64,000 nucleotides of DNA. Origin: a bacterium (GTDB taxonomy: Bacteria; Electryoneota; RPQS01). Of this stretch, positions 27,568 through 35,645 are shown in pieces. Under the pieces are notes generated by a model. The model searched no databases and was not told the origin of the DNA. It was given only the letters and a program-made list of their open reading frames with translations. The stretch is taken from positions 186,001 to 250,000 of the forward strand of contig JAHDVH010000001.1 of the NCBI GenBank assembly GCA_023382385.1, in the 5' to 3' direction. Positions within the stretch are counted from its first letter, which is position 1; the number at the start of each line of letters is the position of its first letter. Both the position numbers and the translations under genes were made by a program.

Positions 27568-27818
27568 CGGTAGGGGAGTGGATAGGAAACAGGTAGTTAC
27601 CAACTTGTGACGAGGGTGGCATTGAGTATTGAACGCTTGGGTAAGGCATTTGGTTCCCGGGTAGGAATAACAAGGGGTTAGCGTGAAGTGGATGTGAGGA
27701 CTAGCTGTTGCGGGGTTTGTGCAGTAGCCGAGTGAACAAGAGGAAGAGTTTCATTCAGATCGCGGATTCGAGTATCGCTCGGAGACCGAGTAAACAGCCT
27801 ATTTCGAGGGAGGTTTCA

Positions 27819-30161
27819 ATGTTGGAAATCGAGAATCAACACAATTTTGAAGTTGCGCTTCGCAATCAAATCAACTTGTTTGTTGGGGCGGGATTTTCTG
27901 TATTGGCGAAGAACAAGTTCGGTGATACACTCCCCACTGGAATCCAGCTCAAAGAGGATCTAGCTTCGAAGTTTGCTATGGCAGATGTCGAAAGCTTGTC
28001 CCTCTCACAACTTTGCACCATTATCGAATCTACTAGTTCCGAGGAGTTTCGGGCGTTCATCGTTGACAAAATGACAGTCGTCGACCACTCTGAGAAGTAC
28101 CTTGCGATTGATAAACTCGATATCAATTCGATCTTTACTACAAATGTCGATGATTTGCTCTTGAAGATCTACTCAAAATCTGACCGCCATTATTCGAATG
28201 ACGTCTATATTAAGGGTCCGCATTATGGCGATAGTAGCGGAGTTGATATATTACCTTTACACGGGTCAATTTACAATAGTGACCGTAGAATGACCTTTGG
28301 AAGCGCAGAAACGGCATCAGCCTTTGATCTTGACCCCACCCATTTTCGGTATCTCGTAGCAAGACTAAAAAAGTCTCCGACAATTTTCTGGGGATACAAG
28401 CTGGCAGATTCTGGAATACTTAATGCAATCGCACAAGCAATGCACGGGCCGGGAGAGCAACCCGACCGCTGGATCGTTATTCCTGAGAAGTACCTGGATG
28501 CTAATACTCGGAAGTTCTTTAAAGCACTAAGGTTTCAGATTATTGTCAGCTCGACTGAGGAGTTTCTTGACTATTTATTGGAGCTTAGTATAGCGCCCTC
28601 ATCGTCGCATGATTCAAGCGTTCATTCAGGGAAACTCGAGTTTCCGGAATTTTCAGTCCCGGAATTAGGAAAGGCGCCGGCACGTCCAATACGAGAGTTT
28701 TATGAAGGCGCGGCTCCAGTGTGGAGCGACATTTTTCAAAGCCAACTGTTTAGGACAAGCCACTATGACGAGATTCGGAATCACGTCAATGCAGGGAAGA
28801 CAGTAGTAATCACTGGTGTGCCTGCGTGTGGCAAGACCACTTTGCTAATGCAGCTTGCTGCTTCAATGTCTTATGAAGGTATAAAGCTCATTATGGATTT
28901 CTGCAGCAAGGAGAAAGCACTTACAATCATAAATCTTCTGCGCTCACGAAGAGCACTCATATTTCTGGACAATATTTCTGATTCGGTAGAGGCTTTCGAC
29001 GAATTTCGCGCGCATGAAAACATTCGAATCATCTCGGCCGATAGGGAGTACAACTATGAAATTGTCTCCCATTTGGTTTCTCACGGGTCAACAATAATTG
29101 ACGTGACAGAGCTTACCGCGCAAGATAAGCAGGAACTGCGAAAACGTATTCCGGATGCAGTAAGACGAGTTCGTGCCGAACACTTTGAAGTGACTGATCG
29201 TCCAACTTCAATATTCGAACTAATTCAAGAAGAGGTAAATTTCCCAAGACTTAATGAAAGGTATTCAAGTGTATTCCAACAGCTTGAAGAGTCAGACTGG
29301 CGACTCACCGATCTCTTGCTAGTAGTATGTTATTTACATTCATGCCGCACACCATGCGCCTTGGACACATTGATTGGATACTTTGAGAGAAGCGTTAGGA
29401 ATTATGAGGAAATTCACGAGCTAATTGCTCGACTAGGTTCACTGGTAACTGATTATTCCGGGCAATTTATGGACACTAATCAGGACTACTTCAGTCCTCG
29501 ATCCAATATTGTTTCCGAGGCTGTATTGCGTCAGTCTCCTGCAGATGCTCTTCGTAGAATGTTGAAGCGGTTTAGACAGAATGTTCGCCCATGGCAAATT
29601 CCTCGCTACGACATTTTTAAGCGATACGCATATGACCGAAGACTAGCGGAGCGCGCTTTCCCGAATTGGTTGGCAGGAAGGGACTATTATGAAGAAATCT
29701 TTGAAGAAACTCGTTCTCCGTGGGTCCGGCAGCAGGGAGCGCTTTATCTAAGTCGGAAAGAACAGCATCAGCTTGCGTTCCAGTGGATCGATCAAGCTGT
29801 AAATATGACAAATTATGACATCTGGAGCATTAGAAACTCTCACGCTGTGATACTGTATCGCGCGAACATTAACCAGAATCCTAGCAATCCGACTGTACAA
29901 GAGAGTCTGAAGAATAGCATGCAAATCTTGGCTAGATGCTATTCGTCGGACAAGCGCAAACTATTTCATGCTCTCACTTTTGCCGAGCAAGCGATTGGTT
30001 ATCGAGATGTTTTCGGTTTGACGCGAGAGGCCAAAGAGTACTTAGAACAGGCAAACTTATGGCTGGAGGAAGAGGCTTCGCTTCAAAGCACGAATCGCGT
30101 TCGAGTATTGAGAAAGCAAATTCGCGAAAAGCTAAGTAACACAATTCAAACTGATAGATGA
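27819..30161 (+). CDS. SIR2-like domain plus P-loop (STAND-type) NTPase, candidate anti-phage protein
   Basis: The 780 residues begin with a SIR2-like NAD-binding domain (about 1-255): FVGAGFS (21-27), FTTNVDD (106-112), LPLHGS with the presumed catalytic His148, and WGYKLAD (191-197). A P-loop ATPase domain follows, with Walker A GVPACGKTT (333-341) and Walker B ALIFLDN (379-385). A helical, TPR-like C-terminus makes up the rest. SIR2-STAND proteins known from defence studies (for example Avs5-type) destroy NAD when they sense phage; that role is inferred here. ATG 27819 is chosen because GGGAGG lies 6 bases upstream. The 251-base gap before it shows no recognisable promoter. The coding region is visibly more AT-rich than its neighbours, which suggests transfer. 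Its TGA overlaps the leuS ATG (ATGA). Confidence 0.8.
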   Translation: MLEIENQHNFEVALRNQINLFVGAGFSVLAKNKFGDTLPTGIQLKEDLASKFAMADVESLSLSQLCTIIESTSSEEFRAFIVDKMTVVDHSEKYLAIDKLDINSIFTTNVDDLLLKIYSKSDRHYSNDVYIKGPHYGDSSGVDILPLHGSIYNSDRRMTFGSAETASAFDLDPTHFRYLVARLKKSPTIFWGYKLADSGILNAIAQAMHGPGEQPDRWIVIPEKYLDANTRKFFKALRFQIIVSSTEEFLDYLLELSIAPSSSHDSSVHSGKLEFPEFSVPELGKAPARPIREFYEGAAPVWSDIFQSQLFRTSHYDEIRNHVNAGKTVVITGVPACGKTTLLMQLAASMSYEGIKLIMDFCSKEKALTIINLLRSRRALIFLDNISDSVEAFDEFRAHENIRIISADREYNYEIVSHLVSHGSTIIDVTELTAQDKQELRKRIPDAVRRVRAEHFEVTDRPTSIFELIQEEVNFPRLNERYSSVFQQLEESDWRLTDLLLVVCYLHSCRTPCALDTLIGYFERSVRNYEEIHELIARLGSLVTDYSGQFMDTNQDYFSPRSNIVSEAVLRQSPADALRRMLKRFRQNVRPWQIPRYDIFKRYAYDRRLAERAFPNWLAGRDYYEEIFEETRSPWVRQQGALYLSRKEQHQLAFQWIDQAVNMTNYDIWSIRNSHAVILYRANINQNPSNPTVQESLKNSMQILARCYSSDKRKLFHALTFAEQAIGYRDVFGLTREAKEYLEQANLWLEEEASLQSTNRVRVLRKQIREKLSNTIQTDR

Positions 30162-32641
30162 CTAAACCCATATCCGAACAGCCGTACCCGTTTGCTGAGA
30201 TTGAATCCCGCTGGCAGAAGTGGTGGGAAGAGAACGGGACGTATAAGTTCAATTGGCACGCAAAAAAGCCGAAGCACTATGTGCTGACGATGTTCTCGTA
30301 TCCTTCGGGGGACAAGCTGCATATGGGGCACTGGTATTGCTATGCGCCGACGGACAGCTATGCGCGGTTCAAGCGGATGCAGGGATATGAGGTATTCGAG
30401 CCGATGGGGTTTGACTCGTTCGGTCTGCCCGCAGAGAATTATGCTATCAAGACGGGGATTCATCCGGCCATCTCGACGGCGAATAACATTCGCTTCATGC
30501 GCGAGCAGCTCAAGAAGATCGGCGCGATGTACGACTGGGACTATGAGGTGGTGACGTCGTCGCCGGACTACTACAAGTGGACGCAGTGGTGGTTTTTGCT
30601 GATGTATAAGCGCGGGCTGGCCTATCAGAAAGACGCGCTGGTGAATTGGTGCCCGAACTGTCAGACCGTGCTGGCCAATGAGCAGGTCGGTGCGGACAAC
30701 CTGTGCGAGCGGTGTGACACGATGGTCGAGCGGCGCAAGATGAGGCAATGGTTTTTCAGAATATCCGATTACAATCAAAGATTGCTGGACGGGCTTGATA
30801 CGATTGACTGGCCGGAGAAGACGAAGGCCATGCAGCGGTACTGGATCGGGAAGTCGGAGGGGACGGAGATTGTGTTTCCCGTCTCGAACAGCGACCTGCG
30901 TATCGAAGCATTCACGACACGGGCGGATACATTGTTCGGTGTGACTTATGTCGTACTTGCACCGGAGCATTCGTTAGTGAAGGAGATTACGACTGCCGAG
31001 CAGAGGGGAGCGGTCGAAAAGTATGTGAAAATGGCTCTGAGTCTTTCAGAAGTGGATCGGCAGGTTGTGGATCGGCCCAAGACGGGGGTGTTTACGGGGG
31101 CATATGCAACGCATCCGCTGACAGGCGAAGCACTTCCGGTGTGGGTTGCAGACTATGTGATCGGGAGCTATGGAACCGGAGCGGTGATGGCCGTGCCGGC
31201 ACATGACACGCGCGATTTCGAGTTCGCGAAGACGTATAAGCTGCCAATAAAGGAAGTGATTGCAGAAGCGAAGAGCGATCAGGAGAAGGCAAAAAGAGCG
31301 GATGGGGCCTTTACTAACTACGGTGTGATGTTTGACTCGGGTGAGTTCTCAGGAATGACTTCAGAAGAGGGAATTCGGGCGGTCGGGAGGAAGCTCGAAT
31401 CTTTGGGATTGGGCAAGCCTACCGTGACATGGCACCTGCGCGACTGGACAGTGTCGCGGCAGCGCTATTGGGGGGCACCGATTCCGATGGTACACTGCCC
31501 GAAGTGTGGAATTGTGCCTGTGCCGGAAGACGAGTTGCCGGTACTCTTGCCGGAAGATGTGACAGAGTACAAGCCCAAAGGGAAGTCACCGCTGGCCAGC
31601 GTGGAGTCCTTTATCAGAACGACCTGCCCGAACTGCAACGGCCCGGCGGAACGCGATCCGGATACAATGGATACTTTTGTCTGCTCCTCGTGGTACTACC
31701 TCAGATATCCCGACGCACGGCTGGATAACGCGCCCTTCAATAGAGAACACTTGAAGGAGATGTTTCCGGTTCATCAATATGTTGGCGGTCCTGAGCACGC
31801 GATGGGACATCTGATTTACAGCCGATTCTTTGGGAAAGTCGCTAAAGATGCCGGTTGGTTCCCCTACGAAGAACCGTTCACAAGGTTGATTCATCAGGGC
31901 ATTATTCTGAGGGGCGGACAGCGGATGTCGAAGTCGAAAGGGAACACCGTCGCGCCGGAGCCGGTGCTCGAACGTGTCGGCTCGGATGTGCTGCGCTGCT
32001 ACTTGATGTTTTCGGGAGACTATACGGAGGGTGGCGAGTGGACTGAAGGCGGAATCACCGGAATTGAGAGGTTTATTGCCCGGGTTTGGAGGCTGGGGAT
32101 GGCCGTCTGTACATCAACCGAGACGACTGAAGAGGCCATACCACGGGACGTTGAGCAAAGGCTCCACAAGACTATCGAAGCGGTTGGTCACGACCTTCAG
32201 GCGTTCTCATTCAATACTCAGCTTGCGAGGTTAATGGAGCTGACGAACGCGATATATGGCTGGGTGGGATCAGATCTTCAAGGCGTGAAGTCGAGTCCGG
32301 CCAAGGTTCAGGTTATAGAAACGCTTGTCAAACTTGTGGCACCATCCGCGCCGCACTTGGCCGAGGAACTATGGAGCCGACTGGGACACATCGGGACTGT
32401 CTTTGACGAAGCCTGGCCCGCGTATGATGCCAAGAAAGCCAAATCTGATACTGTGACAATTGCTGTACAGATCAACGGGAAACTGCGCGATACTTTTGAG
32501 GCACCTGCGGAGGCCTCGAAGCATGAACTTGAGCAAGGTGCGCTGGGACTTGAGAAGGTCAAGGCACAGCTCGAAGGGAAGCAGCTTGCTAAAGCGATCG
32601 TCGTGCCGGGGAAGATTGTCAATCTGGTCGTGAAGGGGTAA
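30158..32641 (+). CDS. leuS: Leucyl-tRNA synthetase
   Basis: LeuS charges tRNA-Leu; tRNA-Leu(CAA) is at 3373-3458. The 827 residues carry the class I HIGH motif as HMGH (55-58), zinc-type cysteines (CPNC, CERC, about 165-190), the editing domain (about 225-400, with the TTRADTLFG threonine-rich motif), SSWYYLRYPDA and the KMSKS motif as RMSKSKGN (588-595). The anticodon-binding C-terminus ends in the usual small domain. ATG 30158 overlaps the upstream SIR2 stop by 4 bp. No separate promoter is visible, so expression appears tied to the SIR2 gene or to signals inside it. Confidence 0.96.
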   Translation: MTKPISEQPYPFAEIESRWQKWWEENGTYKFNWHAKKPKHYVLTMFSYPSGDKLHMGHWYCYAPTDSYARFKRMQGYEVFEPMGFDSFGLPAENYAIKTGIHPAISTANNIRFMREQLKKIGAMYDWDYEVVTSSPDYYKWTQWWFLLMYKRGLAYQKDALVNWCPNCQTVLANEQVGADNLCERCDTMVERRKMRQWFFRISDYNQRLLDGLDTIDWPEKTKAMQRYWIGKSEGTEIVFPVSNSDLRIEAFTTRADTLFGVTYVVLAPEHSLVKEITTAEQRGAVEKYVKMALSLSEVDRQVVDRPKTGVFTGAYATHPLTGEALPVWVADYVIGSYGTGAVMAVPAHDTRDFEFAKTYKLPIKEVIAEAKSDQEKAKRADGAFTNYGVMFDSGEFSGMTSEEGIRAVGRKLESLGLGKPTVTWHLRDWTVSRQRYWGAPIPMVHCPKCGIVPVPEDELPVLLPEDVTEYKPKGKSPLASVESFIRTTCPNCNGPAERDPDTMDTFVCSSWYYLRYPDARLDNAPFNREHLKEMFPVHQYVGGPEHAMGHLIYSRFFGKVAKDAGWFPYEEPFTRLIHQGIILRGGQRMSKSKGNTVAPEPVLERVGSDVLRCYLMFSGDYTEGGEWTEGGITGIERFIARVWRLGMAVCTSTETTEEAIPRDVEQRLHKTIEAVGHDLQAFSFNTQLARLMELTNAIYGWVGSDLQGVKSSPAKVQVIETLVKLVAPSAPHLAEELWSRLGHIGTVFDEAWPAYDAKKAKSDTVTIAVQINGKLRDTFEAPAEASKHELEQGALGLEKVKAQLEGKQLAKAIVVPGKIVNLVVKG

Positions 32642-35476: not shown

Positions 35477-35549
35477 GTCGACACTTCATTCTGAATAACA
35501 ACATCTTAGAACATAGGAATCGGGTAGCGCGCACTCCCTACCTAAATTG

Positions 35550-35645
35550 CGGGAACGTCTGGGAATCGAACCCAGCCATCCATGTGTTACATGGACGCAA
35601 ACGGTTTTGAAGACCGCGGAGGCCACCAGTGCCCCATCCGTCCCC
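35550..35645 (-). tRNA. selC: tRNA-Sec (anticodon TCA)
   Basis: This 96-base tRNA carries selenocysteine to UGA codons. The anticodon loop CTTCAAA on a GCGGT/ACCGT stem gives TCA. A long variable arm has a 7-bp stem (TCCATGT with ACATGGA), and the T-arm CTGGG-TTCGATT-CCCAG is normal. The acceptor is 7 clear pairs plus a G-A apposition at the eighth position, where bacterial tRNA-Sec normally has 8 pairs. The discriminator is G and CCA is not encoded. SelA and SelB, its partners, are encoded on the same strand at 50.5-51.9 and 44.1-46.0 kb. It lies 19 bases after mpl and probably comes from the same transcript. Confidence 0.93.

Follow-up and report, generated by a model that had tools for sequence, protein, structure and literature searches.

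The window, by which we mean the whole stretch of 64,000 nucleotides that was analysed, holds at positions 27819-30161 of its forward strand a gene for a SIR2-nSTAND protein of 780 amino acids (780 codons, ATG start). The surrounding open frame extends from 27708 to 30161, and the plausible start within it is the ATG at 27819, with GGGAGG at 27808-27813 (+), 5 nt 5' of this ATG, as the putative ribosome-binding site. At its 3' end the gene overlaps leuS (leucyl-tRNA synthetase) by 4 nt, its stop codon and the leuS start sharing an ATGA at 30158-30161 (+). The initial annotation had given the span as 27568-30180; the gene does lie inside this interval, which also takes in some 250 bp of intergenic sequence and the start of leuS.

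The gene stands alone between an alpha/beta hydrolase gene and leuS, with VTT-domain (DedA) genes also flanking, and, as originally described, it is without mobile-element ends: terminal repeats and mobile-element genes were looked for at its edges and none were found. No convincing promoter was found 5' of the gene. Its GC content (44.5%) and GC3 (44.1%) are both the lowest among the 40 genes of the window, which has a GC content of 52.1%, so the gene is indeed AT-richer than its surroundings; its overall codon choice is ordinary and no outlier among the same 40 genes. The gene was horizontally acquired and inserted just upstream of leuS. An Rfam scan of the window returned tRNAs and no other element; one of these is a selenocysteine tRNA gene (RF01852) at 35549-35645 (-), which suggests selenoprotein use by the host.

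Domains and predicted structure

Pfam analysis of the protein identified SIR2_2 (PF13289) at residues 104-242 (47.3 bits against a cut-off of 24.5, E 2.9e-12), nSTAND_NTPase5 (PF25199) at residues 292-410 (44.2 bits against a cut-off of 34, E 2.2e-11) and nSTAND3 (PF20720; 34.4 bits against a cut-off of 27.2), and these matches, from which the domains are predicted, are far beyond chance. The motifs quoted in the initial annotation are all present, and their numbering is correct when counted from the ATG at 27819. The predicted N-terminal SIR2 (SIR2_2) Rossmann domain comprises residues 1-255 (27819-28583, this and all following features being on the forward strand), as judged from the PF13289 match and an AlphaFold2 model. 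It carries the predicted NAD-binding motif GAGFS (residues 23-27, 27885-27899), TTNVDD (residues 107-112, 28137-28154) with the predicted catalytic N109, and LHG (residues 147-149, 28257-28265) with the predicted catalytic H148. The novel-STAND NTPase core, at about residues 292-430 (28692-29108), for which both PF25199 and PF20720 score above cut-off, contains the Walker A motif GVPACGKTT (residues 333-341 with K339, 28815-28841), the Walker B motif ALIFLDN (residues 379-385 with D384, 28953-28973) and, from an alignment of 23 proteins, R409 of a 'DR/ER' motif (29043-29045). Residues 575-779 (29541-30155) form a C-terminal, TPR-like alpha-solenoid in the secondary structure of the AlphaFold2 model, and this is the putative sensor.

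Across 19 aligned proteins G23, S27, T107, N109, D111, L147, G149, G338 and K339 are invariant, and H148 is retained in all but a few; one member of the same clade (L029, see below) has N at that position. Taken over the 19-23 proteins compared, catalytic and Walker residues are conserved. Several of these positions can be compared with those of Avs5 from previous work. In PaAvs5 the N110A substitution abolishes defence, R438 is an arginine that matters, and an H to N swap at the catalytic His position is common in Avs5 (PMC12931631). R409 stands about where R438 does in PaAvs5, an equivalence that we infer from the spacing after Walker B. Avs5 also has a Tyr/Trp/Gln cluster at the start of its repeats (Y661, W675 and Q677 of PaAvs5-1). 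At the repeat start in our 23-protein alignment, which is without any PaAvs5 sequence, Y624 and Q639 are kept and the Trp is not.

The AlphaFold2 model, built from a 19-sequence alignment, has a pLDDT of 84.6 and a pTM of 0.78. In it the SIR2 domain extends to about residue 255; after a loose linker at residues 261-272 come the NTPase core, a middle part made up mostly of helices and the helical-repeat C-terminus (575-779), the last of these in agreement with the helical C-terminus originally noted. The STAND-type architecture that was to be looked for in a predicted structure is thus present.

Relation to Avs5 and other SIR2 proteins

Using Foldseek, the best whole-length PDB fold match of the model was EfAvs5 (9jap, E 8e-21), aligned over essentially the entire chain, and behind it came an AVAST5 filament (9nc9), human SAMD9, ThsA, KomC and DSR2. 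Only about 15% of residues are identical to those of solved Avs5, and the whole-chain TM-score to EfAvs5 is low (0.31). Since such low whole-chain scores (about 0.3) arise because the inter-domain arrangement differs, the EfAvs5 match is to be read as one of domain order and local fold, and not of overall pose. A fold search of a viral structure library gave generic ATPase matches and nothing else.

Profile searches of the PDB gave results that depended on the breadth of the profile. With the narrow family profile, matches through the SIR2 domain were to defence SIR2 NADases including ThsA, KomC and SPARSA Sir2; EfAvs5 (9jap) was absent among the entries at E <= 1, and the other solved Avs5 was likewise not listed. 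The wide-set profile did reach both: EfAvs5 at positions 3-770 (E 2.2e-24), and 9nah, the other solved Avs5, at positions 8-416. Because the wide profile reaches EfAvs5 and the narrow one does not, the link between them runs via intermediates and structure. The SIR2-STAND layout proposed for this protein was therefore borne out by profile search, by structure prediction and by fold search.

Single-protein queries of genome and viral contigs returned no match, and matches were obtained with an alignment as query. Full-length relatives show 26-38% identity to the window protein, those at 30-38% with E values down to 5e-174, and are encoded by a lone gene. They come from Bacteroidetes, Firmicutes and Proteobacteria, and include proteins of a Bacteroidetes MAG (38%), Kluyvera (36%), Marinisporobacter (31%) and a Clostridia MAG (26-27%), together with an Oscillospiraceae plasmid copy (31%) and viral-contig copies (29-37%). 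More distant SIR2-nSTAND proteins have 15-18% identity. In Alterinioella the relative (L030:4989-6969) is truncated to 297 aa, and a transposase frame follows immediately. When 23 proteins were placed in a tree, ten relatives grouped with the window protein in a clade supported at 100/100 (branch 1.67); EfAvs5 fell outside this clade, on a long branch that leaves its exact placement unsure. Neither curated set of models recovers the window protein as Avs5: the PADLOC Avs5 model (PDLC02170) gave no match at E <= 1, and NF041814 was not among the NCBIfam matches listed, which extend down to about E 0.15. A true NF041814 Avs5 was sought as a yardstick in 395 Enterobacterales genomes; this gave weak partial matches only, and the PDB sequence of EfAvs5 was therefore used instead.

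The likeness to Avs5 (AVAST type 5; EfAvs5 9jap, AVAST5 9nc9/9nah, PaAvs5) lies in a single protein of about 770-870 aa with a SIR2 domain bearing GAG-x-S and TTN-x-D, an nSTAND NTPase with Walker A, Walker B and a later Arg, and C-terminal helical repeats; EfAvs5 and the window protein align end to end by profile as well as by fold. They differ in that the window protein has HG where EfAvs5 and PaAvs5-1 have NG, and in that, in our alignment, the window clade appears to be without the Trp of the Avs5 W-x-Q motif at the repeat start and to keep the Gln. The N-terminal SIR2-like domain with its motifs, the nSTAND3-type NTPase with K339 in Walker A, D384 in Walker B and the later R409, the C-terminal helical repeats and the end-to-end match to EfAvs5 place the protein in Avs5 in the broad sense. 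The mention of the Avs family in the initial annotation therefore holds in this broad architectural sense, but not in a strict one, since the protein falls in a separate clade and curated Avs5 models do not recognise it. The window protein is a distant, unnamed relative of Avs5 whose separate clade the curated NCBIfam and PADLOC Avs5 models miss, and the best name for it is 'Avs5-like SIR2-STAND protein, distinct clade'.

Other SIR2 and STAND systems share parts of this layout. DSR2 also has a SIR2 NADase followed by a large helical sensor, and its SIR2 domain is a fold match, but the matched DSR2 chains are longer (about 920-1000 aa), and we know of no report of an nSTAND domain in DSR2. An identity with DSR2, that is SIR2 and a helical sensor without an NTPase, was ruled out because an nSTAND NTPase is present by Pfam. 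ThsA of Thoeris and KomC have a SIR2 NADase domain related to that of the window protein; they belong to multi-gene systems in which a small-molecule signal or a partner protein activates the SIR2 effector, and to our knowledge that effector chain does not include a STAND sensor. An identity with Thoeris ThsA (SIR2-SLOG with a ThsB TIR partner) was also ruled out, as the window protein has nSTAND and not SLOG, and its gene is flanked by alpha/beta hydrolase, VTT-domain (DedA) and leuS genes. The TIR-STAND-TPR protein of the P4 hotspot, for which phage defence has been shown (PMC9122126), has the layout of the window protein and shares its hotspot with the P4 relatives of that protein, and differs in that its NAD-consuming domain is TIR where that of the window protein is SIR2.

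Genomic settings of the gene and its relatives

The Kluyvera relative is carried on a P4-type satellite, flanked by a Psu gene (PHROG E 1.8e-60) on one side and an integrase gene on the other. A relative was found in 12 of 5,426 E. coli genomes; three of these were inspected, and in each a psu remnant and an integrase gene flank it, beside tRNA-Leu. At the DNA level the E. coli and Kluyvera copies share about 99% identity. The E. coli protein, WP_073461782.1, is annotated only as 'SIR2 family protein', and our literature search found no published test or naming of it. It belongs to the same clade as the window protein and has the same full-length architecture, but is carried on a P4-type satellite where the window gene occupies a chromosomal slot. 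Elsewhere relatives adjoin P2-like terminase and portal genes (L059, L058), lie between tail-completion and baseplate genes (L060) or occur in other prophages. The plasmid copy (CP141730, L005:4007-8388) stands after Ku and DNA ligase genes, near DNA polymerase IV, on a plasmid that also has rpsI and rplM. The psu-int locus of P4 is a documented antiviral hotspot in which SIR2-STAND proteins have been reported and a TIR-STAND one validated (PMC9122126). The presence of relatives in this satellite hotspot and in prophages strengthens the reading of the window gene as a defence gene.

Among 41 genomes searched by profile, a close copy was found only in the window genome and was absent from its congener; a distant copy was found in one (G009) and marginal partial matches in two others (G011 and G032). 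As a positive control the same profile recovered the gene in five of five genomes known to have it, with one copy each. The distant SIR2-nSTAND gene of G009, a second one for the family (L003:493-2946 / L025, G009:C63), lies beside a dapB-like gene.

The gene is thus not at the leuS slot in the relatives examined; its presence there in all relatives, which the initial annotation took to count against its reading, was not seen. The congener (G001) has the same gene order, with an LVIVD-repeat protein bearing a secretion tail in the slot before leuS. A DedA gene directly abuts leuS in G011, and the slot of G009 spans about 620 bp in which no gene is obvious. The slot holds a Schlafen/AlbA_2-TPR gene and a nucleotidyltransferase/HEPN pair in G002, a GmrSD_N (DUF262) gene in G003, and an HNH gene with another SIR2-type protein in G008; defence-type genes therefore occupy the slot in three other family members as well as in the window genome. 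Given the few genomes, this is a pattern and not a statistic. More generally the region from hydrolase/DedA to leuS is variable, with cargo that differs across G000, G001, G002, G003 and G008 (L018, L019, L021, L022).

A 30-bp block at 27629-27658 (+) is common to the congener at the same locus, where it lies upstream of a different cargo gene. This element, TTGAACGC[A/T]TGGG[C/T]A-N5-TTTGGTTCCC with at most one mismatch, has five copies in two congeners: that of the window (27629-27658), G000:C5:53255-53284 and three in G001 (L075, L078, L080). These lie at the leuS slot, close to an isocitrate dehydrogenase-like gene, close to an ORF whose end resembles HEPN, and 5' of an ORF for a secreted Cys-rich product. 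The element was weighed as an integron-type or transposon end, and no consistent partner was seen among the five copies in the two congeners.

Proposed function and alternatives

We consider it highly likely that the SIR2-nSTAND protein is a single-gene anti-phage immune sensor working like Avs5. Sequence and model support its prediction as a STAND-gated NADase that is Avs5-like in architecture, and by analogy with its relatives it very probably destroys the NAD+ of the cell on phage infection. The C-terminal alpha-solenoid would recognise a phage product, after which the nSTAND NTPase would be free to take up nucleotide and form oligomers, Avs5 being known to form filaments. Clustering would then turn on the SIR2_2 domain, which may hydrolyse NAD+ via N109 and H148; to judge from the conserved residues and the relatives, the loss of NAD+ would halt metabolism and phage replication and lead to growth arrest. 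The same mechanism has been shown for PaAvs5, which senses a phage protein (PMC12931631).

A STAND-gated SIR2 protein might instead make or consume a nucleotide signal, or ADP-ribosylate a target, rather than deplete NAD+ in bulk. SIR2-type folds are capable of other NAD chemistry, and for the window protein there are only a sequence and a model to go by, but we regard this alternative as improbable, given that the closest solved relatives (ThsA, KomC, SPARSA Sir2) and the Avs5 fold matches are defence NADases and that there is no partner effector gene beside the window gene or its relatives. Less probable still is a system of plasmid or satellite competition, in which the protein would act on incoming mobile DNA and not on phages. 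Several relatives are indeed carried on satellites, prophages or a plasmid, but the anti-phage character of the P4 psu-int slot (PMC9122126) and the sensing of a phage protein by PaAvs5 (PMC12931631) argue against exclusion between elements. The 4-nt overlap with leuS is compatible with translational coupling, as might be expected of a domesticated regulator tied to leuS expression; such a role is very unlikely, since the gene is absent in the congener and in relatives, whose slot either is empty or carries other genes, and relatives elsewhere have no link to leuS.

The reading of the gene as an Avs5-like sensor extends predicted NAD-depleting immunity of this kind to the bacterial lineage of the host, and defines a cross-phylum clade that curated Avs5 models overlook. 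It is conceivable, though on balance doubtful, that the clade (the window gene with its P4, P2-like, prophage and plasmid relatives) constitutes a separate type of SIR2-STAND defence that responds to a trigger of its own and escapes current Avs5 models, and that the site before leuS is a defence hotspot of the family with cargo co-expressed with leuS. The leuS-side slot is a place to seek more defence genes in this bacterial family. As the E. coli relative lies in a P4 satellite hotspot, the clade is directly testable with standard coliphages. In E. coli P276M (L065:12001-14306) the annotation splits the SIR2-STAND stretch into three hypothetical fragments, and that copy is therefore probably broken.
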